Below, in pieces: positions 16,020 through 59,105 of a stretch of DNA of 64,000 nucleotides (positions within the stretch are counted from its first letter, which is position 1; every line of letters begins with the position of its first letter). The position numbers and the translations under genes were made by a program. The notes beneath the pieces were generated by a model, which was given only the letters and a program-made list of their open reading frames with translations, did no database searches and had not been told where the DNA came from. Origin of the DNA: Branchiostoma floridae (lineage: Eukaryota > Chordata > Leptocardii > Amphioxiformes > Branchiostomatidae); assembly GCF_000003815.2 (NCBI RefSeq), contig NC_049997.1, positions 3,084,328 through 3,148,327 on the forward strand, written 5' to 3'.

Positions 16020-16194
16020 GCCACCCAAGTCGGATTTGGTCCGATTTTCCTCGGCGGGTGGAACGGTGTCCTACCGAGACAGCTTTGCCTTTCGATCGGT
16101 TCTCCAGCGGGAACACCTCCCGGCCGTCATGAATATTCAACACCTTGTGAGGAGGAGCTTGAGGAATCCCCTGGTGAGGATGTACGGATATAAA
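16020..16194 (+). promoter_or_regulatory. MRF-A core promoter region
   Basis: Elements in order: GCCACCCAAGTCGG (16020-16033), CCGATTTTCCTCGG, GTCCTACCGAGA, the near-palindrome ATGAATATTCAA (16129-16140) and a TATA box TATAAA (16189-16194). Transcription would then start near 16220, giving a leader of about 60 bases. The same elements in the same order precede MRF-B. Confidence 0.75.
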
Positions 16195-16279
16195 GGCAGA
16201 CCTGCCCTCCTTTAAACTCACACGTGGACTCTTGTTGACAACACGACTCTTCCTTCACACAGTCTTCCGCTGTTTCTTC

Positions 16280-17981
16280 ATGATGAACTACACAGAGCTG
16301 AGCAGCTGTCGGTTCCAGTTCGACACGTCCTACCCACAATCACCGGACCAAGGCTTGGACATGTTCGGCAGTCTGCAGGTCCCCGCCCCGATGGAAGCGT
16401 ACGGAGGCTACGGTGAGTCCGCCGGGCACGTCCCGGCCCCGGCGGCGGCAGCTCACGGGCCCGGGCGGTGTCTGATGTGGGCCTGTAAGACGTGCCGGAG
16501 CAGGAAGGCGTCTCGGCACGACAGGAGGAAGGCCGCCACCATGAGGGAGAGAAGACGGCTCGTCAAGGTGAACGAGGCGTTCGAGGTGCTGAAGAAAAAG
16601 ACGCACATGAAGCCGAACCAGAAGACGCCCAAGGTGGACATCCTCCGGAACGCCATCGCCTACATCGAGCAGCTGCACCAGACTCTGCGGGACGGTCAGG
16701 AGAACTCGGCGGGACAGAGTGCGGACTCCCCCGCGGCCAGCCCCGGGGCATGCTCCGATGGAATGGTGAGTTTCTCCATCATCTTTCCCTGAAATTGAAA
16801 AGCATGTTTCAATCATTTATCCCGGTTTTTATTGCTTTTATTAGGTTGGTCGACGGGACGTGTCCTTAAACTTTTAAATCATAAATGTCGCCGTCGCTCA
16901 ATCGCATTCTACATGTAGTCATGGCCATGGAATCCAAACATATACTTATAAGTAGCCAGCAGGAGAAATCATTATCCATCAATCGTTAACGATTACGTTT
17001 TAAGAAAAATACTTTGTTTGACTCTGACGCATCCTGTAAAATTTCGTCAGCATATTGAATCCTGCAAAATCACGCATTTTGATATCATACACGCGTTTTC
17101 CTCTGCATCACTTAAATGATGACAAGAATTGTAAGGTAGCTACAAATGAGTAACGTTTTGTTTGATGTTGTTTCACAGGATTTAAACAGTCCGGCCAGCT
17201 CGTCATCAGAGTCAAGTTTCACCTGGACGGACGGTGACCTGTACCCCTCTACTGACCTCCTCTCCGGTAAGTCTTGTCATCAGGCATGTACATTTATCTT
17301 TCTGTCAGAATTGAATTGTGGCAAGAACACCTGAGTCCAGGACGATCGTGCGATAGTTCTTGGGACAGCCATGCAGTTTTAAAAGTTCAGCTGTCCTGCT
17401 ACACAAAAGGCTGTGTTAGAGCCATGTCGGTGGTTTGTTCTATCATAGCCTGCTATGGCATCAAAATCGTGCGACAATCGCACAGCGTATGTGATCGTGC
17501 CCTGACTCTTCAAATAAAAGTTAGGCTTCGGCTGGTTTTTACGTTTCTGCCTAGCTTTCTATTCTGTAAGAGTTTCTTTTGGTCCACCAGGCGACTTGAG
17601 AGTAACAAAACGTCATCTTTCTCTTTACCTTGTACTAAAGAACACGGTCGGTCAAATGTGAGAGGAATTGTTCAGGATCAATCAGAGGTGATAAAAGAGG
17701 ACAGTATTTCATTTCTCTAACATGTTTCTATTGCCTACCAGCCAACATGAGAATACCAAAACCTTGTAGTTGTAGTTGTAGTTGTAGTAGTTGTACGGAA
17801 TAATCCGAGGTAGTTGGAGGAGGAGTAGGTCGAGGACACTTTTGCAGTTTCTCTAACATGTTTCCTTTGTCTCCCGTCGACAGATTTCCTGTCCAGCATG
17901 TCTAGTGAAGCCGCTGGGACGAGTCTTGACAACCTGTCGTCCATCGTCAACAGCATCGCGCTTCCCGACGGGCACCTGTAG
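16280..17981 (+). CDS. MRF: Myogenic regulatory factor (MyoD family bHLH), paralogue A
   Basis: Muscle-specifying bHLH transcription factor, nuclear, expected to dimerise with an E-protein on CANNTG sites. Exons 16280-16765, 17179-17266 and 17884-17981; phases 0 and 1; 223 residues. In order: N-terminal LSSCRF, the Trp motif CLMWACKTC (W67, the PBX-contact region in the family), basic region [14 protein letters not shown] (81-94) with the myogenic Ala86-Thr87 and Lys96, then helix 1, loop and helix 2 to about 137. Exon 1 ends in CSDGM as in vertebrate MyoD genes. The end of the protein has [12 protein letters not shown] in place of the usual SLDCLSSIV helix III. A is the most divergent of the three ([12 protein letters not shown] where B and C have [12 protein letters not shown]). 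ATGs at 16280 and 16283 are both possible. Which numbered amphioxus MRF it is cannot be told. Confidence 0.95.
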
Positions 17982-17990
17982 TCATGGACA

Positions 17991-18030
17991 CAAGATGGCG
18001 GCGTCCAAGATGGCGGATCCAAGATGGCGG
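17991..18030 (+). promoter_or_regulatory. Three tandem CAAGATGGCGG motifs after the MRF-A stop
   Basis: CAAGATGGCGG occurs at 17991-18001, 18006-18016 and 18020-18030, starting ten bases past the stop codon. The motif equals the established YY1 core AAGATGGCGGC at two of the three copies. It sits in the predicted 3' UTR. YY1 binding is inference. Confidence 0.6.
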
Positions 18031-18209
18031 CCACAATCACTAAAATATTCCGTTCCTTTGTAATCAATTCCATGTTCGACGGACTCTTCTGTCACTAATA
18101 GAAAGTCGTAAATTTTATACGTAATTGACATTTCGACCATGTACGACTTGTGCAAGAATGTCATCGAGAAATGTGTCGTGATTTTTTGTCAATATGAATC
18201 TATTTTTAT

Positions 18210-18215
18210 AATAAA
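18210..18215 (+). terminator. Poly(A) signal for MRF-A
   Basis: AATAAA about 230 bases after the stop codon, the first one downstream. Confidence 0.6.
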
Positions 18216-20690
18216 ATATCAAGGAAAAGTATACCATGTTGTCGTCTGATTTACGTATACAATGTACTTTAGTGTCAGGGATAGTAAAGGGGTCGACATG
18301 ACCGGTGAACATATCGATGGATCTAATGAGGAAAAAAGATACAGATCAGTCCAGAAACTCGGAAGTATGAAATATAGACAAAGTTAGTATGTTACTTATA
18401 ACTGTCCTGTTAGGTTCATCACAGGTCGTAATCACAGAAAAAGCAATACAAACTTACAAAAAACTTTAAGGAACATTTCAAGTAATAGTTATACTGACTA
18501 GATCTATATCTTTGTGCAGGTATAGCAAGAAATGAGTGTTCTTACACGTGGACAGCCCAACCGCGTTCAAACTTCGACATGCCCTTTAAACAGAATTAGA
18601 AAACGTTTTACACCTGGTTGAAAATTTAAGACACCCTTTTCTATGCAGGGCGCTTTGAAAACCGCCCTAGTGTCGACACGTCGTCCCTTGTTAAGTAAAT
18701 AAAATGAAATGAAGTGCTACAGAGGAGTCTATAGTTCGCAGCAACAAGGTCATCTACCTAAATCAGAATGCATTCTTTAGTTATTTACACACTTGAAACC
18801 CTTCAACACGGCCCTTACCATACAGGCGATATAATGCCTACCTATCCTTGCCTACATATAGTATGTTCCTTGATGAATAAGTAAAGCCCGTAGAAAGTGT
18901 TGCCAAGTTCAGGGCGTAAGAACTGTACGTCTGTTGACACAAGCTATGGTACATGTATATTGTTGCCACGAAAGCTGCTATACCCCATTTCCACTAGGAC
19001 AACGCTCTGGTCGCGCGCACCTTAAATTTAACTCTTATCTTCTTATCATGATACTGGACAAAACCCCGCGTGGGGCATAATGTCCAGGAACTCGCCTAAC
19101 AAATTGTATAGAACAGAAAACTTATCTTTTTTACGCTTTGTGTGTTTTGTTGTCTTTTCAGTCACACGTTTACATTTTTTATGATATACCCTGTATGAAA
19201 TTGAAGGATACACATGTCCTATTTAGGTCGCAGTCAGAGAGCAGCGCGATCGTCGTCTAGTGGAAAGGGGCTTTAGAAGAAGCCATGTGACCTACCCGAG
19301 TACTCCGCTTTCTATCAAATATGATTACTAAGTCAATTGTTGCCTTGATTACGTTCAAATTTACTGTTTGTGCCCCAAATGAGAGGTTGTATGATAAACA
19401 CTTATGGAAGAATAAAGTATGAAATGATTTAAACTCCAAGCAGATGTTTTTATCGTTTTTTTTTAATGTTTGGCTGGTGGACTTAAAAAGCGCTTAAAAC
19501 ACGTCCAAAACCAGCCGAGGCCGAACCTCTGCTAGTTGGCAAGTAGCTATTGGGCTGAACAAAGTTTCCAAGGAGTATAAAAGCCCACAGTTTCCAAAGA
19601 GCCCAAATAAGCTAAAAAAAAATCTGTCAATGAAGTTAGCTGGCCCACTGTGTCTCCTATGATCGCCTTTAAACGGTCTTTTCCCCTAATTTCAACCGTA
19701 CAGCTGCAGCCAGAAATCACCAGCTGATTTCTGGGGTGGACTTTAAACAATCGCCGGGCTTGTTTGCTCAGTAACTGGGCCCGATCGGGCGCAAGTGTTC
19801 CTTCCCTCCGAGAGTTGGGGGTAGCTGCACGGTGCGCCCTGTACAAACCTTCTCGGGGCAACTGTTCCAATATCCTCACGACAAATCACTCCCCTGAGGA
19901 GACACACTTTCCGCGCGGCCCTCAAGATGGATGGGGGTAGGGTGACGTCACTGCAGTACATCATGGTCACCGCTAGGTGATGCAGGTGTCACAGAGCGTT
20001 TAGATGGACTTGAAAGATACTATCAAGCGAAGAATCAAAGGTTTCCAAAGTATTTCATCATTTCAAAGTAAGGCATTACTACACAAAAATACAAATTCTA
20101 TTAGCAGGAATGTTACGAGGCTTTTATTATAACCCAACAATTAGCGAAAGGAGATTCGACCATGTACTTTTTTTTTCCTTTTTTACTTCGCGGCGAAATA
20201 ACTTATGAACGGCAATCTTGTATGTAAGCTTTGGTTTTGGATATGATTAGGCTGAAACTAAGTTTATGAAAAAAATGTGGACAAATTCATCATATCAAAG
20301 ACTCTTTTGGCTTGACTTGACTTAAAAGATCGTCATAAGAATGTACTTGCAAGAATGCGCGCAATTCATACCGGGTGTTTTCTTGCTGTTGCTACGTGCA
20401 TGGATAAAATACATTTCTTATTCTAGTGTGACCGCGACCAACATGCACCCCGCCCTCCGCACGACAAACGTCGACAGATGAATTTGACCCTGACTCTAGG
20501 AGTGAGCAGTTGTGGCAAGTGGCACGCGTCGACAGCACGGCCGGACAAAGGCCTGCCTTATACGTGCCCGTCCCCCGTGTCGCCGGCAGCCCGCAAGTCG
20601 CGTGGATGAACAAGAGGAGACCGGGTCCTGTGTCGTCCTCCCGGGCCGGGTATCCACACCCAGGAGACGGGAGGGAGGCTTCGGTTTCTG
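18216..20690. other. Between MRF-A and MRF-B; no gene
   Basis: No credible coding sequence. A segment near 19440-19540 resembles transposon debris (TTTTTAATGTTTGGCTGGTGG ... CCAAAACCAGCC) with relatives near 14880 and 55250. 19660-19960 is GC-richer and contains the paired E-box element listed separately. 20430-20680 is also GC-rich, with no frame or family recognised. Confidence 0.4.
19701..19734. promoter_or_regulatory. Paired CAGCTG E-boxes on an inverted repeat
   Basis: Two CAGCTG sites, the E-box preferred by MyoD-type dimers, at 19701-19706 and 19721-19726, 20 bp apart. The second overlaps a perfect 10-bp inverted repeat, CCAGAAATCA (19710-19719) and TGATTTCTGG (19725-19734) with a 5-bp spacer. 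It lies 1.7 kb after MRF-A and 5.2 kb before MRF-B. Inferred candidate auto- or cross-regulatory site. Confidence 0.4.
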
Positions 20691-21400
20691 TTCCTACTGT
20701 CTGTTGCTATGCGATTTCTTCAATAAATGAACGAACAGGAAAACCATTTCAACATTCTATAGGTGTATGAATGAGGATTGAATGTTGCTATGCGATTTCT
20801 TCAATTGATGAAAGAACATAATCCCCAAGCAGATCCTACGGTGCCATAAGATAGTATCAAAGCTGGCCAGGGAGTATAGCCGGCTAAGGGAGTCAAACGG
20901 GCACCGGAAGTTTGATACTATACATTACGCACCCTGGATCTGGTTGGAGATTAGAAAGAACAGGCTAGGCAAACCATTAAATTTACTATCATAGGTGTAT
21001 GGATGAGGATAGAATGTTGCTATGCGATTTCTTGAATAGATGAATGAACAGGAAAACATTTACACAATCTGAAGATGTATTACTGAGGATAGAATGCTGC
21101 CATGGTCGTGGATTATACGAGACTATTATGATAATGTTTCTGCGACACGTATTATAAAAGATACGATACCATGACAGGGAACACTGCGGCTTGTATACTA
21201 GTACTAAGTAGGTGTATGAATGTGGATAGAATGTTGCTATGCGATTTCTTCAATTGATGAATTAACAGGAAAAACACTATTTAAACATTCTATACATGTA
21301 TGAAGTATGAATGAGGATAGAATGTTACCACAGTCGTGAATTATATGACACTGATTAAGCCTCTGCCTCGTATCATAAAAGATATGATATCACGAAGAGA
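20691..21400. repeat. Degenerate direct repeats, TTGCTATGCGATTTCTTCAA
   Basis: Units with TGTATGAATGAGGATAGAATGT, TTGCTATGCGATTTCTT and GAACAGGAAAA recur near 20702, 20785, 21020 and 21233, with partial units near 21090 and 21310. Between them, 20855-20920 holds a separate small inverted repeat (TAGTATCAAA / TTTGATACTA). Confidence 0.7.
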
Positions 21401-21743
21401 AATACTGATATTTTATCACAAAATGTAAATACAATGTCACGTTTTTTGTACGTCTCCAACTAGATGACAGGCTCTGGACTACAATTGAATTTCTAAAAAG
21501 CAAGCTGGCCTTGTTGTAACTTTTGTTTTTGTTGTTGTTTCTTTTATCTAAATTCAATGGTGTGTGAAGCGTTTTATACAGCTGCTATGAAATATGTGGA
21601 TTTAGCATAAGACAACAAACAATTGATTGAATGAGCTAACACAAAATGGGTCGGAAATTTCAATAATTTTGAATCTTCAATTTCAGCCCGGAAAGTTTGC
21701 TGCTCACTGCTTTCAGTTTGGTGATTTTTGACAATTTTCTTTG

Positions 21744-21766
21744 CCCCCCCCCCCCCCCCCCCCCCC
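21744..21766. repeat. Poly(C) run
   Basis: About 23 C in a row; its length may be unreliable in the assembly. Confidence 0.95.
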
Positions 21767-22588
21767 AAATCTTGGGAAGAAGCTCTTTCTTGCGTTCATA
21801 TGTGAAGATCCGTACGTGTGTGTTATCTATGTGTGTGTCCGGGACCCCGGCTGTGTAATAAACACAGGCTCGTTGAAAAATCATCAACACTTTCTATGTC
21901 TTCAAGATGCCGACAAAGATAGCAAACGTCTTCCATTCACTTTCACAAAGAAGAGAAAACAAGAAGACACACAAGTCTCCTGAAATCTCCGTTTTTATAT
22001 GACGAAGAAAATGCTGACCAAGTACATAAACGTTTGCGCCAGAGAAACCCAAAGTTTTCCCTGAGAAAACCTACCGTATAAAGCAAATTTATCATCACTG
22101 AGGGACGCGATTTGGCGCGTACTGACAAAGTGACATCATTAGAAAACGATTGTCACTTCTGGGCTAAGTGGAGACGTGCCAGATAATAGTGATTCACACC
22201 GATCTGGCACTTCCGACTTCTGTGTGTATTGAGAGGCGGTTAGCACAAACAGCAGAACAAGAGATTTAACGGGATAAAGCTATTTTCGCCTTTGTGTTAA
22301 TCCGGTTTAGAGTGGATTGTGGTAATCGAGCTAATAAACTCATCAGTGGCACGAGAGGATGAGATTTTAACGAGCACCATAACAAACGGTCAGAACTGAG
22401 CGAGCAGATGTTAATGTCTTCAGAAGAAAACTCTCCCAAGATGGCGCAGTCTTTGTTTTCATCTGACTCATAACAGCTCTAAGTGATGAGGCACATGTGA
22501 CTGTTAAGCACGGAAAGTTTGTTGTCATAAAGCTGGGACGTCCTTCCTAAAACTAACTCATAGTATTTCAAAGTGTGAAAACCTAAAA

Positions 22589-22717
22589 TAGCCTATACCG
22601 GGCTCCACAGGTCGCAAACTGTACTCCTCGGCCATCTAACTCCTCTGGTGTGTTTTCTGTCTTATTTGGCCAATTTCTACTATTTTTCTAGCGACCTGTG
22701 GAGCCTGGTAGAGGCTA
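22589..22717. repeat. Hairpin MITE with TAGCCTATACCGGGCTCC ends
   Basis: Left end TAGCCTATACCGGGCTCCAC AGGTCGC pairs with right end GCGACCTGTGGAGCCTGGTA GAGGCTA. Related single ends occur near 10360, 10855, 11795 and 39500. No coding capacity. Confidence 0.75.
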
Positions 22718-23299
22718 TGTGATAAATACATTGATTGTAGTCCAGTCTATTTGTTGCAGGATAGCAACTATTCGGGGATGTGTACTGCTTATCTCACATG
22801 CAACAGTCTGTGTTTATCACATGTAGTACGTTCTTTAAATAATCGGATCACAAATGTTTAACTTAAAAGTGATATTCTCAGAAATAAAATCAATTCAGAC
22901 CTTTGCGGGTGTTTTGATACACAGAACTATTACCTCAGGACATAAGTTACCGTTACTTTTATTATACCCACAAAATTTCCAAACATTTACTGACAAAACA
23001 AAACTATAACCCTGTTTACGTCACATAACAAACTCATTATAGAAAAAGTGGGACACTTCGTCTTCCACTGCTTCCATCCAGAAAACAAGTGAAACCCCAA
23101 ATGCTTAGATTGTAGCTCTTTATCTGTACTGTACATATCACCAGAACAGCCTCTTGTTTCTACACCATCTATACCAAAGTCTTTTATTTTTTGTATGTTT
23201 ACAATTTATTCTGTATGTCACATGTTGCAATTAGCCCACGGGCAACAACTTGCAAATAAACTTTCATCATTATATTTCTATCCTTTCTCCTCCCGGTTG

Positions 23300-23389
23300 G
23301 TCCAGGTGGCGGGAGCCGCGGCTGGTGTACACCTCCCGGGGTCAGACATACTGGCGGCCGGCGCGCGCCTTTTAAATGGAAATTCTTTC
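23300..23389 (+). promoter_or_regulatory. Conserved block CNE-1, MRF-B copy
   Basis: About 1.5 kb upstream of the MRF-B start. GTCCAGGTG, CAGACAT, TGGCGGCCGGC and TTTTAAATGGAAATTCT occur in the same order and spacing class as at 14464-14549. The core CCGGGG...CAGACAT...GGCGGCCGG is closest to the orphan copy at 30602. Confidence 0.55.
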
Positions 23390-24010
23390 TAATGGCTACA
23401 AGTTCTTGTCCCAGCATGGCGGGCCCTTCATGTCCGACCGCCCGGAGGATCCTGGGGGACACCAGAAGGATGACGTCATTTTCAGACGACGTTTAGGGTT
23501 GACCAAGGAGGCTTTATCAGCTAAAACCTCCAGGGTTGACCGATATTTTGTTTAGCTAAAATGACTTTAACTCGTGCGCTTCAAGTTTCTTTTCTATTTG
23601 ATTGTTGAAGATGTTGTGTTTTTTTTGCCTACGTCGGGTAACGTTAACTTTGAGTTTGAAAGAGTTGTTTTAGAAATTTTGATCTAGAAGTAGAAATTGA
23701 CGTCGGTTGACGACAACAAGTCAAAATATCAGAAAGAAAGAGAAAAAAATTCTAGAAAAAAAAGGAGGAAAGCAAATTTAGAATCTTTGTGTGTTTGTAT
23801 TCTACGCTACTGTTTATCTTGGGAAGTCTTTCAATTCACAGACAATTGAGGACAATGGTCGTGTGTCCAAACAAAGCGATTGTATCATGCGAACAACTTC
23901 AAGGTGGCAAACTTCAGCACTTCTTGAAAGGAAGGGTACAAACACAGAACACGCACAAGCTGTAATAGGCCCTCACGTTTACATCACAACACCTCTGGAC
24001 AACAGATCTA

Positions 24011-24050
24011 GGAGCTCCGAACCTTTTATGTGCAGATACCGTGACGTGTT
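24011..24050 (+). promoter_or_regulatory. Conserved block CNE-2, MRF-B copy
   Basis: Counterpart of 15251-15290 (34 of 40 identical), 829 bp upstream of the MRF-B start. The core AACCTTTTATG also appears at 33040-33050. The similarity resumes about 40 bases later (CATGCGAGAAATT against CATGCGAGGAATT). Confidence 0.65.
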
Positions 24051-24534
24051 GTAGAGGGGGAGGGGCCGCGGGACGACTTCAAGATGAGAGAAGTCTTCAT
24101 GCGAGAAATTGCCACAACAACTTTTCTTGTACTTTGGAGTGCCTTCGAAATACAAAATTGTATTCAATGCAGTAATAATGATATTATTGCAACTTCTATT
24201 GCAAGTGACAAAAAGGACATACAAACAATAGTAACAGCATAGTGAGCGACTACTCTATTAAAAGGCCGACTCTAGAAATGTATTGGGTTTGACCTATTTT
24301 TCTGAGACGGTGGAAGAGTTAGACGATGGATCACCACTTTCCTGTAATGTGTGGGTTTTGAGATGCTAAAAGGAGAGAAGTTTTCTTTTTATCTGCTGGC
24401 CTGTCAAGAAGGAATATCAACATGTGTCAGCACACAAAAGTTCTGTTACATTAGCGAACATCTTCCATGTGCAGATGGTTCTAAGCAGACACAAGTGACG
24501 CATCTTGACTTCCAGCCGAGTTGTGACCTGTCGT

Positions 24535-24730
24535 GCCACCCAAGTCGGCCCGGCTCGCAGCACCGATTCTCCTCGGTAGGGGTAACGAGGTCCAACCGAG
24601 AAAACTCACATCCCGAGCAGGTTCCCAGAGGGGGCACCGTGTTTCCAAATCGGGAGTATGAATATTCATAGGTCACCAGAGTGGGAGGGGCCGGTGGACT
24701 GCCCCCCTTTGGAGGAAAGCGGGTATATTA
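24535..24730 (+). promoter_or_regulatory. MRF-B core promoter region
   Basis: GCCACCCAAGTCGG (24535-24548, identical to MRF-A), CCGATTCTCCTCGG, GTCCAACCGAGA, the perfect palindrome ATGAATATTCAT (24658-24669) and a TATA-like TATATTA (24724-24730). The start of transcription is expected near 24755, giving a leader of about 125 bases. Confidence 0.75.
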
Positions 24731-24878
24731 GCGCTCGGCGGATCCTCTAACAACATACATGTGCCCTTGTTCGAGCGGAGAGTGTCAGTGTTCATCACTT
24801 GCTCTCTGACACTTCAAAATATCACTCCCATCACAGTTTTAGTTGGAGTAGGGGTGACTTAAGAGACACCAGACCAGG

Positions 24879-27800
24879 ATGGAGTTTGTGGAACTGAGCA
24901 GCTGTAGGTTCGACGCGACGCCGACCTTCTGCGATCGTCCAGCCGCCCCCAACGCCACGGTCCTACCGGGCGAACACTTCCCCGTACCGAACGGCTCTTA
25001 CGAGTCGGACCATGGGGACGGTCACGTCCTGGCCCCGGGCCCGTCCTTCCACGGCCCCGGCCGCTGTCTGCTCTGGGCCTGCAAGGCGTGCAAGAAGAAG
25101 ACGGTCCCGATCGACAGGAGAAAGGCCGCCACCATGAGAGAGAGGCGTCGTCTGGTCAAAGTCAACGAGGCCTTCGACATACTGAAGAAGAAGTCATGTG
25201 CCAACCCGAATCAGAGGCTCCCCAAGGTGGAAATCCTCCGCAACGCCATCTCCTACATCGAGCAGCTCCACAAACTGCTACGGGACAGCAAGGAGAACTC
25301 GTCGGGAGAGGTCTCGGACAGCTCCGCTCCCAGCCCCGGGTCCTGCTCGGACGGAATGGTGAGTTGACTCCGCCCGTTACATGTTAGAACACGACCGGAC
25401 AGGGACGGATCAGAAAACCGAGATCAAACGACAAGCGAGTCAAGTCGTTATCCCCCTTGTCAGGCCTGGCTTCCGTTGTGTATAATTAGTTAACAATCCT
25501 GACGATAAAGAAGCTTCCGAAACTTATATAATTGCACAGTGGGGAGTTTAAAGTACATCTAGATATTCATACAAATTAGTCAAAATTATAAGTTGTCGAT
25601 TGTCTAGCGTTGCTGTAGAAATATTCACGTCTAGTTTATGGTTTTTCACTTCACTAGAAACATGAATAGTGTTCATATATGTACTGTACAGGGTTACTTA
25701 CAGGGTTACTGGTGTCTTTTTATGGCAGTGCGTAGGAGGAAAAGTTCCCATAGCCGTATTAACTTTTACTACATGAGAACCATATCCATGACGCAGACCG
25801 TCTGTACGATATGACGTTAGCAGTCTTTATCTGGGTCTTACTATCGCTCCATCCTCCCAGCCTTGATCCATATTTACCCCGGCTGACTCGCCCGAAAATG
25901 GCGTTGAGATAGATCCCATATCTACTTCTGATAATGGCCTCCTAATGACGTGCTTCAGTCCGTGGGTAGTTGTGGGATTTCAGCTTCACAGAGAAACGTT
26001 CAACTAGTGATGTCCGCCGCTCTCATCTGGTCTTCATTACGCAAACCTACGTTGTGTTTCCAAGTGGGGTCAGCAGGCCCCATGCCCCTGGGCTATCAGC
26101 TCCCCTGCACCACTTTGGTTCAGTAACTTTTCAATCTGTACTGCAGATAAATTTAATTAGCAAGAAAAACAATGTTGTCCCATGGAAGTAGCACTCATTA
26201 CCGGGGGTACTGCTGACAGAGTCGGCCGCAAATGGGAGAGTCGGGAGGGGAAAATATGATCCGTGTTAAGGGTGAGGTGTGGGGAAAAGTCGACTGTCTG
26301 ACCTAGACTGGGTGTAAACTGACACTACAAGTACCTTTTCTTCTGGCGATCCGAATACTGGCGTCCTTTTTTTTGGTGAGAAGCCAAAATAGAAACGTTT
26401 TTGTACTTAATCGCTTTTGACAATCGCTACACACATATACATGTATACACAGAGGTACTAGGCCACGTAAATTGAAATTGGAAAGATATGCATTGTACCT
26501 TTTGTTGTTTGATAAACAGTGATACTTTTAGTTTTAACATACTAAACCTTGCTTCAACAGGCTTACAGCTAGAACCCTCTAAATGTGTACATAAGAGTAT
26601 TTGAGTGCAATGTCAATGGTTAGATAACGTTGTTTATTATTTCCTCTTCTTCCTTGCAGGCTGCCCACAGTCCCCACAGCTTCTGTACAGACACATCCGG
26701 GAACTCATCCTGGGAACATGGTGACAGGCATCATGGGAACGGTAAGAGAACTTCCATCTTACCTTCCTAGGCTACAGAAACATGGACGTTCTTTTGACAG
26801 AATGACTCTTTCTGTTGTCTCAGTGAGAAGTTTGCCTTCGATTAAGCATTGTTCCGATACTTTGGACGTTATGATGCCACAAATTAGCCTACAATAGTTA
26901 TAAACAATTCCATTTTACTTTGTAGACACAAGCAACTGCTTATAAATGTTAAAACTGAAGAAACGACCCTGCAAAGCAAAGAACACAAAATATGGAACGT
27001 TATCCACTGTATGAAACATACCTTGTATTGATGTAAACATAAGAACACACAGCGATCGCTTCACAAAAGAAAACATCGCTTCTTGCTTTAGCTGCCATAA
27101 AAGATGCATTTATAGTTAATGAAGCTGTTTTAAAGACCATAACATTGCAAAGTGATTTGTAATTGAAAGTGATAGCGTAAGCAGGCACATGTACCCTGCG
27201 TGATGCCGCATATCAGGTTACAGTCTGTCTATAAATACATGGGCTATAGAATAACGCACTATTCAAAACGGAGTTATACAGGGCAGTAATACAGGATTTT
27301 ATGAACTTGATTTTTGCTCAAGTCAAAGTTGTAGAATGGCAATATTGTAGTTCGTTAAGACTTAACCGAAGAATAAAGTGCTGGTTCTAACTGGAATAGA
27401 TATTAATGTTGGCATGATAATTGAAAGCTGAGACGGGGCATCATTTCCAGAATATTCCAGTCATAAATCATCGGTATATATATATATAGATGTCGATGAA
27501 TGGAAATTGTCCATAGTTTTGTGTCTTGTGAGAAATGTTTTCGGACACACGTTTTGGCTCTGTGGCATACTACAGTTATGAGTAACAATTGGCAAACAGT
27601 TACTCATTTTCTTTGCTTTATTTTTATATCCCATGCACCCAATGTATTGTAGCAATCCTCTTGACCAAAACAGGACCCAAACGGACTCAAATATGCATGC
27701 TCCATTCAGAAATTTATTTTGAATTACTTAAATGGCTCTTTTTGTACCGATCAATCCTCTGTTATCGACAATGGCAATCGTATATTGTTTTAATTTAATA

Positions 27801-28219: not shown

Positions 28220-28386
28220 GAGACCCGCGCCAAAACAGGGGACTGCCATTCATTTTTAACAAAGGAGGCATCGGGGACCATGTGTACATTTCCAATGAAC
28301 TTATATGGACTTGAGAGAGAAGTAATTATTGTGAGGAAAAGTCGTTGTGTTGTTGTTGGTCTTGTTGTCGTATTCTTCTTGTGAAG

Positions 28387-28396
28387 TCTCGCGAGA
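28387..28396. promoter_or_regulatory. TCTCGCGAGA palindrome in the MRF-B 3' UTR
   Basis: Perfect 10-bp palindrome TCTCGCGAGA, a motif known from CpG-island promoters in vertebrates. The same palindrome, with similar flanks (CTTCTTG...AA), occurs in the last coding bases of MRF-C at 47865-47874. Role here unknown. Confidence 0.4.
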
Positions 28397-28498
28397 GATG
28401 AAGTGTCCACGAGATTTTCTGAACGACTGAATGTATATCTATTTGTACATATGCTGTATATACTTGACTTCCAAGCTACGCCGTGTTCTCGTGCTAGA

Positions 28499-35560: not shown

Positions 35561-35564
35561 GAAA

Positions 35565-45545: not shown

Positions 45546-46965
45546 ACACTCTCCTTCTTATACTTGTTTACAACAGTACGGATACTCATGATGACAGTCA
45601 CAATGACATTAGCCGCCAAATTAAGCCGGTCTATATCCAGAGAAAGCCCCAATGACGCTAACCAACATCGCTCAGAATCATTGTGAAGGAATGCAGTTCT
45701 GCCCCTGTTGAGCTGAACACCGTTCCCTGTAGAGTGGTTGAGGGCAGACGTCTCTTGTCTCGTGTGAACAAAGATGACACTGTTCTTCCGTCAGGCCCAT
45801 CTATGGGCATGTTCACCGCCTCCAGTCCTGTATCTCCGCACTGCGGATTAGTACACCAGCCAGGAGAGGTCAGGGGTCAACAGCAGGGTCAGAGATCAGT
45901 GAAAGTGAACGCCGCTTGTCAGATAGATAAACGAGGGAACAGTCAGTAACAATACCTCACCGGCAACCCTGAGATTTACAGCACCAATCTGTGTACTGCC
46001 TTCAGACTGAATCATTCTGAGATGTTACTTCTGTCTAGATTGCTCATATTAAACTGGATCTTACCCCTCAGGCTAGTTGATAAAGAATCAGCAATAAGTC
46101 ATTGTTGTTCTGGATTTTTCCCATGCATTATTTCAGCCAATAATTTCTACCATCAACAGTAGGCAAACAAACCCGAAAACATATATTGTTGTTTCGTTGC
46201 GTTTCGAAAGAACAGACTTGAAAGACTTGTACAGGAAACACCTTAAAAAGAATCACTGAACGTCTCAAAGCATTGCGCAAAACGATAAGGCTTTCGGTAG
46301 CTATTTCTAATTAGCTTTTAATTAGTCTGTGGTCTCGGCTGGTCTGTCGGCACGATTGGGATCGACTTACACAACCCTCCCGATCGGTAATGAGAGCCCT
46401 CGCTATCAACTCTCGGGATACTAATGAACTTAAATAGGTGGAACTATACAATCGGCTTTGTTTACAGTCTCCTGCCGGAGGCTTTGGTCAGGTCTCTGGG
46501 GGGAATGTCCAAAAGGCCGCGCATTGCTCCATGGGAAGTATCGGGTGACACGCTATCAAATGTAAAGAAAACAAAGCGGTGAGTTAATTTTGGAGGAGTT
46601 GGCGACATTTGAGATGAGAGGGTGCTGATGACTCTGGAAAATTCAGACGGTTCAGACAGGATATTTTTAGTCGTGCAGAGGAGCATCTTCCACTGGCAGT
46701 GTATCAAATATTCATTGTCGTTGAGTTATGACTGTTAACAAAATACTGTATGCATATTACAGGGGCCCTTAACATCAGTATGGCTATCAAGTCAAGTCAA
46801 CAAAAAAGCAGGCAAAAGCTTTAACCAGTTAAATAACATAAAGAAACCGTCTTGAAATATTCTTTATCATTCCTCTACTCCAAAATTCCAACATCATTCT
46901 ACTTTTTTTTGGTACACGACCTAAACTGGAGTCAACACTCCTACCTGGCCGAAGTTACGTATACT
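45546..46965. other. No gene seen
   Basis: 46330-46700 is less AT-rich and could be regulatory; I found no shared block in it. No coding signal. Confidence 0.3.
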
Positions 46966-47315
46966 CAACTCTACTCTACTCTAGTTTACTCTACTCTGCT
47001 CTGCTCTACTCTACTCTGCTCTGCTCTGCCCTACTCTGCTCTACTCTACTCTACTCTACTTTGCTCTACTCTACTCTACTCTACTCAGAGTGCTCTACTC
47101 TACTCTACTCTGCTCTGCTCTACTCTGCTCTACTCTACTTTGCTCTACTCTACTTTGCTCTACTCTACTCTACACTACTTTACTTTGCTCTACTCTAGTC
47201 TACTCAGTAATCTGCTCTGCTCTACACTTCTCTGCTCTGCTCTACTCTACTCTGCTCTGCCCTACTCTGCTCTGCTGTGCTCTGCTGTACTCTCTAATCT
47301 ACTCTATTCTACTCC
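46966..47315. repeat. CTCTA/CTCTG pentanucleotide array
   Basis: About 350 bp of the 5-bp unit CTCTR, with occasional TTTGCT and GTAATC interruptions. It lies 0.5 kb downstream of the MRF-C stop codon. Confidence 0.95.
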
Positions 47316-47331
47316 TTAACGATCATATGAT

Positions 47332-47377
47332 TTTATTAATAAAACTGAACACGTTACGCATCGAAACAGACTTTATT
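47332..47377 (-). terminator. Candidate poly(A) signals for MRF-C
   Basis: On the minus strand AATAAA occurs at 47372-47377 and 47332-47337, giving a 3' UTR near 500 bases that ends just before the CTCTR array. Confidence 0.45.
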
Positions 47378-47841
47378 AGAAATTGTTTACATAAGTCTTG
47401 TAGAGGATAGGTAGGATTACAAACAGTTCACATATATATTTACATTTGAAACAATATATATTTCAGGAAAACGGTCAAGGCTCGCCCAATATCTGAGTAA
47501 ATCATAGCATGATCATGGGATAGGTAAAATGCAGCGATTTTATATCAAGCCAAGGTGGAAACAGACAATACAGTCATGAACAGTGACTCACAGGTAAATA
47601 CATTAAGTACTTATTAATATAAGAATGTAAATGTACAAAAGGAATAAAAAGTACGAATATATACTTGAATCTCAACAGAAAAGTATACATATAACTGTGA
47701 CGGGGAAATAACAGAGATATCTCTGTAGAAATATTACATAGCAAATATATCTTTAATACATGTATATCAAATACAGTAGACGGAAAATTCAAATATCTTA
47801 TCGACAAAAGCTGGAAATATGGGGTCAATTCTCGTGACGTT

Positions 47842-50800: not shown

Positions 50801-53800
50801 TCCGCTCTTTACGTCCTTACGGATTAAAACGGAACCCTGGATGCCTCAGGCCCGGAACAGCGCTTATGAACACCTAATGCTGTAAGGTATCCTGATACTA
50901 GACCTGTCAGTAACCATACCTCAATTACAACGCAGGGGAAAATAATATACAATTGTCTCGGATGTTGCGGAGCTCGGTCGACGTCGGAAGGAATAAGTTG
51001 TTTTGAGCTTCTTTAAGCACAACAGTAAAGTTGTAAGTCAGAAGTAAGTCAGTCCTGATCGTTGTCAAGCCCACGGAAAGCCTTCCGGGTGTGAACTAAT
51101 CCCTCCAACCTATGTAAACGCATGTACAGTCTGTTGTATAAACTTTACGTAGCTGCGAAAACAAACATGGTTGTACGATGTTCGCTCTCTGATGACAGAC
51201 CGTCGACCGGACTGCCTGGACACACTTCTTGTGGGTGTCGGTGCGGATTTGAAGATAAGAAGGTTTGTTTCAGTGGGAAAGTATACTTTAAACACGGTAA
51301 GCCATATGTGGATCGTTGGAGGATGAGGGGGGGGGGGGGGGTGACCATGTGGTTCGTGTTGGACTAAGGGCGAATACTAAACCAAATGTTGAAAAAACAG
51401 TTGTTTGAAGGTCGGCCAAAGCAGCGGCGTTCATCGCCCGAAGGGTGCTCTTATCACGGGCGGGGGCCTGCTTCTCATTTCTGACTTTGTTTGCTCCTCA
51501 AAACGGAGTTGAACTGGTCTGGGGGAGACAAGACTGCTAATTCTGCCAATCAGAATCATAGTAACCGAACGACGATAATGAATGAAAGACCTTTATTGCA
51601 CATTTATGCTCAAACAAGCTAAGTACAGGTCGTAGCGATGAGGTACAATTTCATGTTTTCTTTCTACATCTACAGAGTTTACTACAGGTTCAACTTCTCG
51701 CTTCTTCAGAGTCTTCAGACAGCTGTAAACATAAGGGCAGATGCAATCAATAATGTACTGTCGTCAAGCAAATCCAACAAATATGGAGTGCGATGATACG
51801 TTAACGTATCAAAGGCTTATTCGTCTTCTACATGGCGGGGAATAGCCTGATTAAATCTCGCTTGTAGCAGCCCGCCCAACAACATCCATGGGGAGGGGCC
51901 AGTTACAGCCCGGACAGCAGAGTTTGTGTTACACAGACTACCGGTGGAAGGCTCCTAAAAACAGCTTTTCCAGCACAGTTACATTGCCAAGTACAGAGGG
52001 TTAAATATATCGCTCTTGTCTTGTCTAATGTTTGACTCAGGTAAACTAGAAATAACCTTCTCGGTTACACATGATGAGAAGTAGGTGTAGGAGATGACCA
52101 GACAACCCCCCGCGGAGAGACATGGTCCTATCCCGTCCATTACATCCTCCCTGCTGAGGCAACAGGTCCGGGGACAACACGGCAAAACTTTCCCAGGACT
52201 AACCAGATTAAAACAGGCTGGGCACGGATGGGAACACCATCATTCATGCCTCAATGCAAAAAAGGAACTTCGTATAATCTATATATTACTTGTAAAGATC
52301 CTCACTGTGTCTCCTTTCAATATTGTATTCAAAGAAGATAAACTGAATGTAGTTTGTGCAAGATCTATGCTACCAGCAAGTAGTATCATGCAACAATCTG
52401 GCTTTGTTTGTCTCACATGATGACATTAGTATACGTACTGTGTTTCCTTTTGATATTGCATGGAATCTACATCTACTGTTACTAGACTCTATGTGGCTAG
52501 CTGTCTTCTACAGTATACTAAGTTTACATCCGATCGTACCTGTTGCAAATGTTGACCCAATTTGTTGTGCAGTAAACTTTGACTTGACCGATATCGAGAC
52601 GTTTATACTAGTATCTTCCATGGAAAGGGGAGTTGGTTATCTGACAAAGAAAGAAACTTGACGACACGACATAAGCTTCATATGCTAACATTTTGTCCAA
52701 ATTTGCGAATACGCGACAATACAGACAGCTTAGACCGTGGATTAGTAAAACTAACGTCTCGGGGGTTTATAAGCGATTCCATCGCAAGTCAATCAAATAT
52801 AGCTTTAGCAGTCTTATCTCGAGTCGTCTAACTTTCATCAAAGTATGTCGGAAGCCACATCAGGGGCTGATTTAGCGCTCCCTTTCTTCTGCAGTAGCGG
52901 AAGTTTACTCCGACGTTACCACACCCACACAGTGTTTATAAACTCCACCTCAGAAAGGCCTGTCCTGCAGTAGTGTTGTCATGTGGGATGCAGGTAGAGT
53001 GTATAACGACATGAGAAAATGATGAAACGGGGGCAGTTTCCGCTGTATAACGAGGCTCGTTTGTTTGTGTTGAGTCGCGGACAGCAGGCCGATTGGCCGG
53101 CCCCGGGCCCCGGCAGACACACGCTCCTCATTAGCTTAATTCGGCGGGTTTGGAAGCGATTTGGCCCGAAGTGGAACCACATGCGGCGCCGATGACCTTC
53201 GGGATGAGTTACTAGGCTGCGCGGAAGGACTTGTCAGCCTCCCCGCTCCCGAGACTGATCGCTATCAGCATCGCTGCCGACGGAGGTCCCGTCCGAGGGG
53301 CAGCGGGGACGGGGAAGCTTCGGGTCGGAGGACATAAGGTTCACGCGAGGGGCAAATCATCGGCTGACTCCGACGTCTGTCCTCTCTTGTAGGGCGTGGG
53401 ACAAAATGCACGGTACATTAACCGCGTGACCCTTACCTGTCGGCTCATTCTCACGATCTACATCAGTATTAAACTTTTAAAGAATTAAAACTCTAAATTG
53501 CGTGATCATCTATCAAGAAACACTTAAGTAATCTATTGAATTTACTCTCGTACCCCCAGGGGTGCCTAAGCATTTGCACGAACCCTATGAAATTCGTACG
53601 AATATTATGTGATACACACGAATCACTATGCGAAAACGCACGGATATTATGAAATTCGCACGAATCACTATGCGAAATCGTACGAATTTTATGAAATTCG
53701 CACGAATCACTATGTGACACACACGAGCCTTATGTGATTTGCACGATCCTTATGCAAAAACGGCGGNNNNNNNNNNNNNNNNNNNNNNNNNNNNNNNNNN

Positions 53801-56800
53801 NNNNNNNNNNNNNNNNNNNNNNNNNNNNNNNNNNNNNNNNNNNNNNNNNNNNNNNNNNNNNNNNNNNNNNNNNNNNNNNNNNNNNNNNNNNNNNNNNNNN
53901 NNNNNNNNNNNNNNNNNNNNNNNNNNNNNNNNNNNNNNNNNNNNNNNNNNNNNNNNNNNNNNNNNNNNNNNNNNNNNNNNNNNNNNNNNNNNNNNNNNNN
54001 NNNNNNNNNNNNNNNNNNNNNNNNNNNNNNNNNNNNNNNNNNNNNNNNNNNNNNNNNNNNNNNNNNNNNNNNNNNNNNNNNNNNNNNNNNNNNNNNNNNN
54101 NNNNNNNNNNNNNNNNNNNNNNNNNNNNNNNNNNNNNNNNNNNNNNNNNNNNNNNNNNNNNNNNNNNNNNNNNNNNNNNNNNNNNNNNNNNNNNNNNNNN
54201 NNNNNNNNNNNNNNNNNNNNNNNNNNNNNNNNNNNNNNNNNNNNNNNNNNNNNNNNNNNNNNNNNNNNNNNNNNNNNNNNNNNNNNNNNNNNNNNNNNNN
54301 NNNNNNNNNNNNNNNNNNNNNNNNNNNNNNNNNNNNNNNNNNNNNNNNNNNNNNNNNNNNNNNNNNNNNNNNNNNNNNNNNNNNNNNNNNNNNNNNNNNN
54401 NNNNNNNNNNNNNNNNNNNNNNNNNNNNNNNNNNNNNNNNNNNNNNNNNNNNNNNNNNNNNNNNNNNNNNNNNNNNNNNNNNNNNNNNNNNNNNNNNNNN
54501 NNNNNNNNNNNNNNNNNNNNNNNNNNNNNNNNNNNNNNATAGGGATCGTGCAAATGCTAGCACCCCTGACCCCAGTCGCACTTATGTACATAAACTAGCC
54601 AGGAGAATATATGGTCATAACGTTATATATATATATTTAGAGGGGGGGGTTAGAAAGAGGAGAGAGAGAGATGAGGAGAGAAAGAGAGAGGAATAGATAG
54701 AGAGAGAGAGAACTTTGGTGGACATACGCCAAACTTCTCAAGATTATATAGTAACAATGCTGTAGCTTTGGACAGACATTGAAATATTGAGAACATCCCT
54801 ACATGGTTACTTCTTATGATAGTAATAAAAATGAAATACAATGGATGCTACGTAAAACACACACGCCAAGTTACCAGAAAAGTTGTGTTTCCTCTTGAAA
54901 TGCTAAACGGTTCAGATTCAAAGTAACGGAATTATTGACAAGATTCCAGCTTGAAACATATTCCAGTTGTACATATTGAATTGTATTTGAATTTGTTTAC
55001 TTGGATGACTAACCTTCATAAACGTGCCATAAATCATATGATAAGTAGACGACTCACCGTTCTTGCCTGTAGGTTTGACGTCACAGTTGTCTCCGAAGTG
55101 ATGTAAGGTGTCCACACAGAAGGCGTCCGGACTGTGGTCAGACTGGGGGATCATGGGAAATAGGATTACAGGGGAAGGACAATAAACAAACCGGATTATC
55201 TATTATATATCTAACCTGCGGTAAGTTATAGTACTTTGCAAACAGAAGTTCGGCTCATGCTGGTTTTTGGCGTTTTTTTTAAACGTATTTCGCGTTTGGG
55301 CGAGAGACATAGAGAAACCCGTACAAAATAGAAACTCAATAAAAACGCCTTAACCGGAGCAGAACCTATCTTGGAGAGTAAGCTGATGTACTACGCAAGC
55401 TAGAGTAATGAGGAGAAGGATAGGTTTTTCCCAGTTCCAATGAAATTCTCCCTATAGGTATATCAATACATTCAATGTAATCAATTTAGTATAGTACGTC
55501 GATAAAATGGTATAAAAGGCCAGTTTCTCCCAGATCACTTCAGTCTCACTGACGAATGTTAGTGGATGCTATCTGAAACGTCTGACCGTTTCCAAAATCA
55601 TATCCAGTTGGTTGAGTAGCTTTTAGGTGTATCTAGTATTGTGTATACCACCTTACCAAGCAAAAGACATTACTTATTGTCCATTTGCCCCTTACATCTT
55701 ATAACAAGTTGCTCAGGATATCGAATCTGACATTTAAGAAAGCTTTAATTAACATGTGGGGTATCCTGACACACTCTATTACTATGGTAACGGGGTCCAC
55801 AAAAATACAGTGTCAGTCCCATCCATATTGCGGATTTATTCATTGTAGCCATGTAAGTCCCACATTTGTCTTATATTAACTGTTATGACCTGTATAATCA
55901 AGTGTACCTGACTCAGTTTAGCTGACGTGACAAACTTGTAACACTACCTCCATTCTGTATCATGTAACTCATCCGGTTAGTGGAACTCTTAGCGGAGCAG
56001 TTTTGCGTGGTCTACAGCTACTGTATGCTATGTACAAAAATGTACCAATGATTTAACAGAAGTATACGCACCTTAGTGTTAGTAATTTGTAAGATTTTCA
56101 CCTCTTTCCATTCTCTTCTCTTTCGTTTTAATTTTAGATCTAGACAAAGCTCTGTGCTGTAAACGCTCAACAAGTGGTTTGAAAGCAGTTAGGCTTCGTA
56201 ATTAATCCCAAAAGGCAAAATACACGACTTCTTTCTCTATAGTTTGTTTTTATATGAATAAAAATGACCAGGTTGGTAAATAATAAAGGGTTAATGCCCC
56301 GGCNNNNNNNNNNNNNNNNNNNNNNNNNNNNNNNNNNNNNNNNNNNNNNNNNNNNNNNNNNNNNNNNNNNNNNNNNNNNNNNNNNNNNNNNNNNNNNNNN
56401 NNNATACACCGAGGATAAGGCGGGGCATTAACGTTATTATCATATAGCCTATCCAACTGACAGTTATTTCACACAAATTCATTTATAACAAATAAACACT
56501 TTTAGTTAATACATTACATAAAAATACATTTGCAATATATATATTGTACAATAGTGTCTATATATAATACAAACATTAAACTATTTCATCATCATCATTT
56601 AAGTAATAATTTTAACTAATCATCTGTTTGTGAGATAGCATATCAGCATCAACATGTGGCTTATTTGCAATACAAACTACATGTATTAAGTGGAGTCCTG
56701 GTACCCCCCATGCAGAGCCTTTTCACTTGGGCACGACAAAGTACGTATATATGAAGTGATTTAGGAAGGTACCGGCTTAATCACGTTAGAAAGCCATAAT

Positions 56801-58742
56801 GAAAATGTGTAAAATCAGCATAATTCCTTTTCAAGTATCCCTATATTCCCCATGTGGAGCCCTAATTAACATAACCAATCAATCATAATATTTTTGACAG
56901 TTATGCATGGTTTACACACAAACAACAGTACAAAAAAAATTCATGACTGTCCCCTGTATAATGGTGCGGTCCAAAAAGTGGTCGGTTATTAGAATAACCG
57001 ACCACTTTTGAGGTTACGGCCTGATAACCCATGGGAAATGGGGGCCTCTGATTGGCCAACTCCATCTGGCTATATGATAATAATATATACACAACCTCTG
57101 TTCTTCTACACAGTATATCTGATGACAATCACAACTTTTGCGCATAAATAATTTTCTTCCGACATCTTCTTTTCATGTACAAAACTATGTAATATTTCAC
57201 AGACCTGTTGACGACAGCTGATTGCCTATAGCTGGCAGGTAGAACGTTACCTGAAAATTCCCAAATCCTATTATCTTAACCTCTAATACTAATAGTCTAT
57301 TGTCCTGTGATAATGTTCCGCGTGTGTTTGTGTAGCTTTGTACTTGTTCCCAGTTGGAGAAACAGTCTCTACAATGTTCCCAGTTCGGCCTGAAGAAAGC
57401 ATACTTCCCAGGCCAACTTTTGTTTCGTCGGGCTGGCAAAGGGAAGTGTCGGTCCCAGAGGATATCACCTGGGAACCGAACCCTACACTCCAGCCCTGTC
57501 CCAGCCCACGGACATGTGGTTCTAGTTATTCTGCTGTAACAAACTTGGCGAGTAGGGTTTGACCTCTCCGTTTCGGGTGAGCGCCGTTCTGAGAGAGTGA
57601 GAAAAGCTTTGTTTTGGATCATCTCTGCTCTGTTTTCCTCGCTGGTTCTCAACTGAAGAGCCTCGAGTGGCAAATGTTTGGACGGTGCGGAACTGGGAAA
57701 ATATACAACTACATGATGGAACTTTTGTACGACGAAAAAGAACTGTGTCAGTGCAGAACATATTAGTATGAAGAAACTGTCTTTCGGCCTACTTTTGGTA
57801 AATTAACTTCAGATAGCGACTAGGAACGTCAAACTGAAGCTGTATTGCAACAAATTGGATATGTATCATAGAAGTGTTTGTATACAGAACAACTTTTAAG
57901 ACTTCTGAGCTTTCCAGACGAGCGTATTAAGGAAGATACTGTAGGACAGTATCTTAGGAGCTAAAATTATTTACTAGAATTGACGATAAAAAAACACTAC
58001 CAGTGACTATGAGATTTATATCACAGACACTGAAAGGGAAGTTGTTAGACAAGTGATAAGTCTTGTGGTGTCCCACCCACACTTACGATAACTTCTGGAA
58101 CCAGACTTAACAACCCGCAAGCGTACATTAACACCGCTACTACATGATCAGTGAATCGTACATGTACACTGTACACTAAACCCATGATATACTCAGCAAG
58201 AGCTATAACTAATTTAGAGACGAAGAGAACACAACAGAACTCACCATCCCGTCCGAACACGACTCCGTGCCCGCCCCGTCACTGTCTCCGTCCGTGTGCC
58301 GTCTGTTTCCCGACTTCTTGCGATTCTCCTTTGCCCCTCGTAACAAGTTCTCAAGACTCTCGATATACGTGATGGCGTTTCGAAGAATCTCGACTTTGGG
58401 CAGCCTCTGGTTCGGATTGGTGCATGTTCTTCTCTTCAGAACCTCGAACGCTTCGTTGACTTTCCTTAGGCGTCGCCTCTCTCTCATAGTCGCGGCCTTA
58501 CGCCTATCTACAGTCACGGATTTCCTCTTGCAAGCCTTGCAGGCCCAGAGGAGGCAGCGGCGCTGGGAGTGGAAGGCTCCGGGGGCGAGAACGTGCTCGA
58601 CTGGCTCATCGGAGTCGTCTAGAGGAGAGGCCGGGATCGGGAGGTGGTCGCCCGGGAGGACAGCACCGTTCGACGTCGATCCGCGCTCGTAGAACGTCGG
58701 GCCTGTGTCGTACCGACAGCTACTCCTCTCAACCACCGCCAT
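47842..58742 (-). CDS. MRF: Myogenic regulatory factor (MyoD family bHLH), paralogue C
   Basis: Muscle-lineage bHLH activator on the minus strand, converging on MRF-B. Exons 58245-58742, 55058-55142 and 47842-48029; intron phases 0 and 1; 256 residues, the longest of the three. The ATG at 58742 has a good context (GAGATGG). Features: [16 protein letters not shown], Trp motif [12 protein letters not shown] (W66), basic region 79-92 with Ala84-Thr85 and Lys94, helix 2 ending at about 134, then a Lys/Arg-rich stretch ([11 protein letters not shown]) not seen in A or B. Exon 1 ends SCSDGM. Exon 3 gives [14 protein letters not shown] and then a longer Ser/Glu/Asp-rich tail ending STPQ. Introns are large (3.1 and 7.0 kb) and hold transposons and gaps 53767-54538 and 56304-56403, so further transcribed sequence could be hidden, though the coding joins are complete. 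Confidence 0.95.
48030..53550. other. MRF-C intron 2, left part
   Basis: No coding exon. 50155-50340 is a fragment of repeat R1 (GGTCAAGTTCGACTTTGGG, TTGGTACTGCAGCAGAACTT). 51330-51342 is a run of G. 53080-53350 is GC-rich (GGCCGGCCCCGGGCCCCGG) and may be an intronic regulatory island. The rest shows nothing recognised. Confidence 0.35.
53557..54568. repeat. TIR transposon with minisatellite core
   Basis: Left end CAGGGGTGCCTAAGCATTTG is inverted at the right end (CAAATGCTAGCACCCCTG), flanked on both sides by ACCCC (53552-53556 and 54569-54573), a possible 5-bp target duplication. The visible interior 53580-53766 is a ~42-bp minisatellite made of two ~21-bp halves (CGCACGAATCACTATGCGAA). The remaining 772 bp are N. 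Inferred non-autonomous DNA transposon. Confidence 0.7.
53767..54538. other. Assembly gap (772 N)
   Basis: Run of N inside the minisatellite-bearing transposon. Confidence 0.99.
54644..54712. repeat. GA-rich low-complexity tract
   Basis: GAGAGAGA-type tract after a G run and a TATATATA run. Confidence 0.9.
56290..56432. repeat. Inverted repeat around an assembly gap
   Basis: GTTAATGCCCCG (56290-56301) is inverted as CGGGGCATTAAC (56421-56432); the 100-N gap 56304-56403 fills the centre. Similar to the situation at 11355-11581. Confidence 0.8.
56974..57009. repeat. 36-bp near-perfect palindrome
   Basis: AAAAGTGGTCGGTTATT (56974-56990), two-base centre AG, then its exact reverse complement (56993-57009). 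In MRF-C intron 1. Loop too short for a microRNA precursor; it may be a collapsed terminal inverted repeat or a protein site. Confidence 0.9.
57197..57673 (-). other. Uncertain 158-codon open frame in MRF-C intron 1
   Basis: Open but without recognised family, and without clear splice or poly(A) support. It contains no repeat ends I can see. Chance or a decayed repeat is more likely than a gene. Confidence 0.12.
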
Positions 58743-59043
58743 CTCGCTTCACAACAACATAAAACAACCCACGAGTTCACAAGTTGTTCACAACTGCACG
58801 TTTACTCGAGAAAACGCGCCACAGACTTCACAACAGTCTCCGAGTCCCAGAGAACAACTCCTCAAGTTTGACAGTCACAGTCTATCGGAAACCAGTGGAC
58901 CGGCGACTTGATGTGGTAACCCGATCCACTCGTTGTCCACTCAGGGTTCAGAGACGCAGCGTTCGACAATTAATCCTGCATGTACATCGCCAGTCAACTT
59001 GCTCGATATGTCTCTAAAAGTCACGCCTCCTTGCGGTCGGCTC

Positions 59044-59105
59044 ATGAATATTCATCAGATAAAAACTTTCACCGCCCAGACCGAGGTATGACGACATGTC
59101 ATACC
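59044..59105 (-). promoter_or_regulatory. MRF-C upstream promoter elements
   Basis: The perfect palindrome ATGAATATTCAT (59044-59055), shared with MRF-A and MRF-B, lies about 300 bp before the start codon. Next to it is an inverted repeat GGTATGAC, 5 bp, GTCATACC (59085-59105). A further inverted pair CTCGGAC/GTCCGAG lies near 59138-59160. No good TATA box; TTTTAG at 59014-59019 on the minus strand is the nearest AT-rich candidate. Confidence 0.6.

Follow-up and report, generated by a model that had tools for sequence, protein, structure and literature searches.

Four of the five paralogous MRF promoters of Branchiostoma floridae carry an intact copy of one palindrome core, which amounts to three independent copies, and the fifth, that of MRF4, carries a degraded one. 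We read this palindrome as a MORE-A4-type POU homodimer element in an inherited and selected MRF promoter module, on which a pair of class III POU factors would act as activator, and we place the probability of this reading at roughly 55%. The palindrome element as such is real and very probably constrained. The reading builds on what is observed directly in this region, namely sequence identity, the positions of the copies, a module shared between promoters, strongly diverged synonymous sites nearby and the decayed copy at MRF4. The assignment of a POU factor as the putative binder is drawn from the match of the palindrome to a published dimer motif.

The DNA analysed is a window of 64 kb at C19:3084328-3148327 in an assembly of 513.4 Mb and 431 contigs, to which ten flanking stretches of 10 kb were added, giving an extended region of 163 kb with some gap runs of N inside; all five first coding exons of the MRF cluster were located in it. 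The genes are named here after the published order, MRF4-MRF2a-MRF3-MRF1-MRF2b, which the available sections of PMC7530620 give for the five-gene cluster of B. floridae, together with a clone and another species' assembly in which four MRF genes are flipped. The present cluster is taken to be the same one, as both have five clustered genes and a first exon common to MRF2a and MRF2b. With names assigned in this way, the first coding exons within the window, each encoding bHLH sequence, are those of MRF2b (16283..16765, plus strand), MRF1 (24879..25358, plus strand) and MRF3 (58245..58742, minus strand). The first exons of MRF2a and MRF4 lie in flanking sequence to the right of the window, at window-scale positions 72193 and 79821, both on the minus strand. 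A cytochrome P450-like coding region, judged by eye from reading frames, adjoins the cluster at 515-3900, and a tandem satellite at 46837-47410 has reading frames made of repeated YSTLL/CSALL units.

The palindrome TGAATATTCA is present exactly three times in the window, each time before an MRF start codon, and four times in the 163 kb, always in an MRF proximal promoter, the fourth being that of MRF2a. Read as a 12-mer, it is a perfect MORE-A4, ATGAATATTCAT, in the promoters of MRF1 (24658..24669, plus strand, -221 from the ATG) and MRF3 (59044..59055, minus strand, -313 from the ATG of this minus-strand gene), and agrees with MORE-A4 at 11 of 12 bases in that of MRF2b (ATGAATATTCAA, 16129..16140, plus strand, -154). 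These distances refer to the 12-mer; for the inner 10-mer they are -220, -312 and -153, respectively. MRF2a, like MRF2b, has one end base changed and matches at 11 of 12 positions, and MRF4 fails to match. A preliminary description of this DNA had placed palindromes about 150, 220 and 300 bp before the three ATGs and had seen no other full copy in the window, and both statements are confirmed by the positions and counts given here. Its wording that the palindrome precedes all three MRF genes holds for the window, but the cluster has five genes and the MRF4 copy is degraded. A short dyad with perfect 8-bp arms, GGTATGAC-N5-GTCATACC, also closely precedes the MRF3 palindrome on the gene strand, at 59085-59105.

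The palindrome is one part of a shared module that opens with a CTCGG...CCGAG dyad. The palindrome comes next, followed by a GGAGG box and, in four of the five MRF genes, by a TATA box. The dyad takes the form CTCGG-N19-CCGAG in MRF2b (16050..16078, plus strand, 50 bp before the palindrome) and MRF1 (24572..24600, plus strand, 57 bp before it) and CTCGG-N15-CCGAG in MRF3 (59135..59159, minus strand, 79 bp before it); the MRF2a promoter has its dyad at window-scale 72398, and MRF4 has the first arm with an altered second arm (CTCGG...GTTGAG) at window-scale position 80060, approximately. Since its spacer is shorter, its palindrome lies farther away and a separate CCTCGG of MRF3 aligns instead, the MRF3 dyad may be separate rather than homologous to the other MRF dyads. 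Within the 163 kb, the pattern CTCGG-N15/19-CCGAG occurs six times: once in each of the MRF2b, MRF1, MRF3 and MRF2a promoters, and twice elsewhere. These last two matches, at window positions 3811 and -20185, are one sequence in opposite orientations and may represent an inverted duplicate.

On the 3' side of the palindrome, the box reads GGAGGAGC in MRF2b (16151..16158, plus strand) and GGAGGGGC in MRF1 (24684..24691, plus strand), and in MRF3 a GGAGG was read from the sequence at 59026..59030 on the minus strand. The half-site ATATTCA is present in all five promoters, and its start is followed by a TATA element at a narrow range of distances: 56 bp in MRF2b (TATAAA, 16189..16194, plus strand), 62 bp in MRF1 (TATA-like TATATT, 24724..24729, plus strand), 56 bp in MRF2a and 60 bp in MRF4. 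A scan of 470 bp at MRF3 found no TATA match. A shared promoter module of MRF genes is not described in the parts of PMC7530620 available to us, and the main text of that paper contains zero occurrences of 'palindrom', 'binding site' and 'POU'.

The weight of the shared palindrome depends on how many of its copies are independent. Over about 270 bp before the ATG, the promoters of MRF2a and MRF2b are near-identical, and the near-identity continues through exon 1; BLAST gives 93% identity for the stretch that starts at about -400 and ends with exon 1, and the first-exon dS is 0.056. The two promoters are therefore counted as one, which leaves three independent intact palindromes. Gene conversion between these two genes is considered in PMC7530620, as far as its available text goes, and because the near-identity spans the whole proximal promoter, a conversion tract would include the regulatory module. 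MRF1 and MRF2b have a dS of 0.84, and their promoters align throughout and are joined by BLAST at the dyad block; the dS values for MRF1-MRF3 and MRF2b-MRF3 are 1.74 and 1.98. On these distances, MRF1 and MRF2b are older homologues than MRF2a and MRF2b, and MRF3 is far apart from them. A BLAST of the MRF3 upstream region against the other four MRF genes found no match. Taken together, the dS values and the BLAST results indicate that an 11-bp core is identical in three lineages, in a setting where the MRF3 promoter has otherwise drifted almost past alignment.

Part of this pattern would also be expected if the palindrome were leftover homology, identical through shared descent or gene conversion and devoid of function. 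The near-identity of MRF2a and MRF2b fits gene conversion, and the MRF1 and MRF2b promoters, aligned throughout and BLAST-joined at the dyad block, fit shared descent. However, MRF3 is far diverged (dS 1.7-2.0) and its upstream region is without a BLAST match, yet its palindrome is intact, and leftover homology is thus a decidedly unlikely account of the whole. The four-promoter alignment gives the same contrast in another form: the palindrome is its best 12-column block, with a mean pairwise identity of 0.833 against a median of 0.361, and the next separate block, with an identity of 0.694, contains CTCGG. Conservation is judged here among the paralogous promoters of the cluster.

Chance recurrence of an AT-rich palindrome is most improbable. 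It draws some support from the finding that two palindromes of such make-up are commoner genome-wide than low-order Markov models predict, but the counts at the MRF genes speak against it. For TGAATATTCA, 100 dinucleotide shuffles of the window give an expectation of 0.15 copies and none of them reached three, and the genome rate (1639 copies in 513.4 Mb) gives 0.20 per 64 kb and 0.52 per 163 kb; for the 12-mer ATGAATATTCAT, 392 copies genome-wide correspond to 0.05 expected in 64 kb, where two are seen. In five 320-bp promoters 0.005 copies of the palindrome are expected, against three independent ones. Probabilities from such expected counts are post hoc for this palindrome, and word sharing across the three promoters is the better test. 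Among 5000 shuffles of the three 350-bp MRF upstream sequences, one produced a 10-mer common to all three and none an 11-mer. Random triples from the same region, scored without words built from fewer than three different letters, shared a 10-mer in 4 of 3000 cases and an 11-mer in 0 of 3000; since the MRF1 and MRF2b promoters are homologous, the three are not fully independent draws in this test.

The preliminary description had made its proposal depend on a low frequency of the motif in the genome, and the exact genome count agrees with it, at one 12-mer per 1.3 Mb. The 392 copies of ATGAATATTCAT do exceed the 80-119 expected by Markov models, which were trained on sequence that included the palindrome loci. 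Nevertheless, a single dinucleotide-matched control palindrome has 220 copies, and 7 of 20 sampled 12-mer sites (the first of 50 listed, all on C1) fall in one repeat family. If the remaining proportion of 13/20 holds throughout, about 255 sites are left, near the control's 220. Given the matched palindrome and the repeat family, the genome-wide excess of the 12-mer gives no support to a function.

The repeat family carries ATGAATATTCAT near one end and was seen as two inverted pairs, 7.4 and 8.8 kb apart, that resemble a DNA transposon with long terminal inverted repeats. A transposon origin of the MRF palindromes was considered and rejected, as their flanks match 0 of 54 other palindrome loci, some of which overlap. 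The combination of palindrome plus TATA was likewise discarded as a genome-wide signature, with 116 matches against 63 for a reversed control.

The identity of the putative binder is suggested by published work on POU factors. In the accessible portions of PMC4576985, ATGAATATTCAT is named 'MORE-A4', the top de novo ChIP-Seq motif of class III POU factors (Oct6, Brn1, Brn2) in neural stem cells, and homodimers of Brn2 and of class IV POU factors are stated to form on it in vitro. The intact MRF palindromes have the same symmetric 6+6 half-sites and agree with the motif at 12/12 or 11/12 bases, and the exact MORE-A4 in MRF1 and MRF3 bears out the earlier comparison of the palindrome with the POU-dimer element class. 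The settings differ, in that the ChIP-Seq sites reported in the available text come from neural stem cells, whereas the present ones are recognised by sequence in an invertebrate chordate, in the proximal promoters of its muscle-determination genes.

The palindrome might instead be bound by a non-POU factor, for instance a heat-shock-factor-like protein on an nGAAnnTTCn pair, or by an unnamed dimer. The nGAAnnTTCn pattern is a heat-shock-type consensus, and a heat-shock element needs at least three alternating nGAAn units. TGAATATTCA also fits nGAAnnTTCn and the conserved core is symmetric, as such a reading would have it, but a third unit is absent: in MRF1 the neighbouring position on either side has three mismatches, and in MRF2b and MRF3 the best candidates, each with a single mismatch, lie on opposite sides. 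The outer A and T, moreover, are kept in MRF1 and MRF3, and MRF4 is without a GAA arm and retains ATATTCAT. A non-POU binder is accordingly rather unlikely. A heat-shock element in the strict sense was rejected, as each of the three sites tested has no more than two exact units.

The genome itself is predicted to encode a POU factor capable of dimerising on MORE. A PF00157 profile search of the genome gave seven matches, and fetched DNA at C9:14656334 contains a class III POU gene whose best structure matches, 7xrc and 2xsd, are both of POU class 3. Its POU-specific domain is identical at 63 of 72 residues, with nine differences, to 7xrc, which we take to be Brn2. About 2.2 kb downstream, a homeodomain exon, assigned to the same gene by proximity and strand, encodes NRRQKERRM with the dimer-contact Met; the middle of this split homeodomain was not located near C9:14656334. 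Other POU genes, by their family signatures, are presumably Pou4, Pou2 and a Pit-1-like gene. The Met at residue 151 is characteristic of class III and makes a partner contact on MORE, according to the available sections of PMC5286379. One class III POU gene was thus identified, as against two listed in the accessible part of PMC9953854; a further PF00157 match lies on C10. The nine differences and the split homeodomain of the gene found would suit the diverged Pou3l.

Binding sites of Pit-1, of POU class I, are of the TATNCAT type, to be compared with the ATATTCA of the MRF promoters. Pit-1 is an unlikely binder, however, because in amphioxus it is reported, in the text of PMC9953854 available, only from the preoral organ and its anlage. 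Among the POU factors covered there, B. lanceolatum Pou3l (class III) is first detected at G2, is found in the somites and neural plate at N2, where it covers almost the whole neural plate, and has become faint in the somites by N4. The expression of Pou2 is diffuse at N2 and, at N4, occupies endoderm, neural plate and the tail bud. MRF1, MRF2a and MRF4, according to the sections of PMC7530620 available, first appear at the gastrula stage, in presomitic mesoderm, and MRF3 at the early neurula stage, in the somites. Because of this apparent overlap with the MRF genes in time and tissue, as judged from these partial published accounts, Pou3l would be the best candidate.

The same comparison limits what the palindrome could do. 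Pou3l is also present in the neural plate, where MRF genes are not reported, so the palindrome cannot alone specify muscle. Nor does it set onset, as MRF3 has a perfect palindrome and yet is expressed later than MRF4, which lacks one. A role as a general booster is more likely than one as a muscle switch. The amphioxus neurula atlas (PMC11136973, available portions) associates peaks of the muscular somite with MRF and T-box motifs and links those of POU type with neural cells.

Such neural expression raises the possibility that the POU element is repressive, with neural-plate POU factors keeping the MRF genes off outside the mesoderm. This would agree with the largely neural expression of Pou3l and Brn1/2/4 at the time when MRF genes start in the adjoining mesoderm, but the same available text also reports Pou3l within somites (PMC9953854). 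In four of the five genes, furthermore, the palindrome lies 56-62 bp before the TATA box. Such a place before the TATA box is usual for an activator. Repression is for these reasons unlikely.

Our preferred reading, activation by a class III POU pair, would imply the following history and mechanism. One ancestral MRF promoter would have carried the proximal module, including the palindrome; tandem duplication would have passed the module to the MRF genes, and selection would have kept it. A class III POU factor, with Pou3l as the first and Pou2 as the second candidate, would pair on the palindrome in mesoderm, both presomitic and somitic, and provide a common positive input to the MRF promoters, to which T-box, FGF or other factors may add tissue specificity.

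If correct, this reading names a cis input that the muscle-determination duplicates of an invertebrate chordate have in common, and it connects a factor class familiar chiefly from the nervous system with the beginning of muscle. Among the literature matches listed, in so far as their text was available, there is no link of this palindrome or of POU factors to amphioxus MRF promoters, nor of POU factors to muscle determination, and no paper on the regulation of vertebrate MyoD or Myf5 by POU factors was recognised among the matches listed. The whole words Pou5f3, Oct and POU are all absent from PMC7197714, the available portions of PMC7806126 and PMC4245813 contain nothing on POU in amphioxus muscle, and the titles and abstract openings of the matches listed point to no published alignment of orthologous amphioxus MRF promoters. 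With one site intact in some and decayed in another, the five paralogous promoters would also offer a ready test of task division among duplicates.

The decayed version is that of MRF4, where the aligned position reads ATTTACATATTCATA and the degraded copy is ATTTACATATTCAT. It retains an intact right arm, ATATTCAT, but no left arm. The opposite strand reads ATGAATATGTAAAT; there, an octamer-like ATGTAAAT lies one base away from ATGCAAAT, and the MRF4 site may be a POU site of the monomer type. With one arm gone and an octamer-like sequence beside the other, a dimer site would have become a monomer-type site. A broader proposal, which we regard as possible but less likely than not, is that all these promoters derive from one ancestral grammar of dyad, MORE-A4, GGAGG box and TATA, in which class III POU would be a direct common input to myogenesis and the change in MRF4 from a dimer site to a half-site plus octamer-like sequence would be the cis change behind its separate posterior expression. 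Farther upstream, about 1.6-1.8 kb before the MRF4 ATG, there is a long inverted repeat (GTCTCTACCAGACTCCGGATCGCTGG...) resembling a small foldback element, and between this repeat and the gene lies a tandem array of GAACATC-type units.
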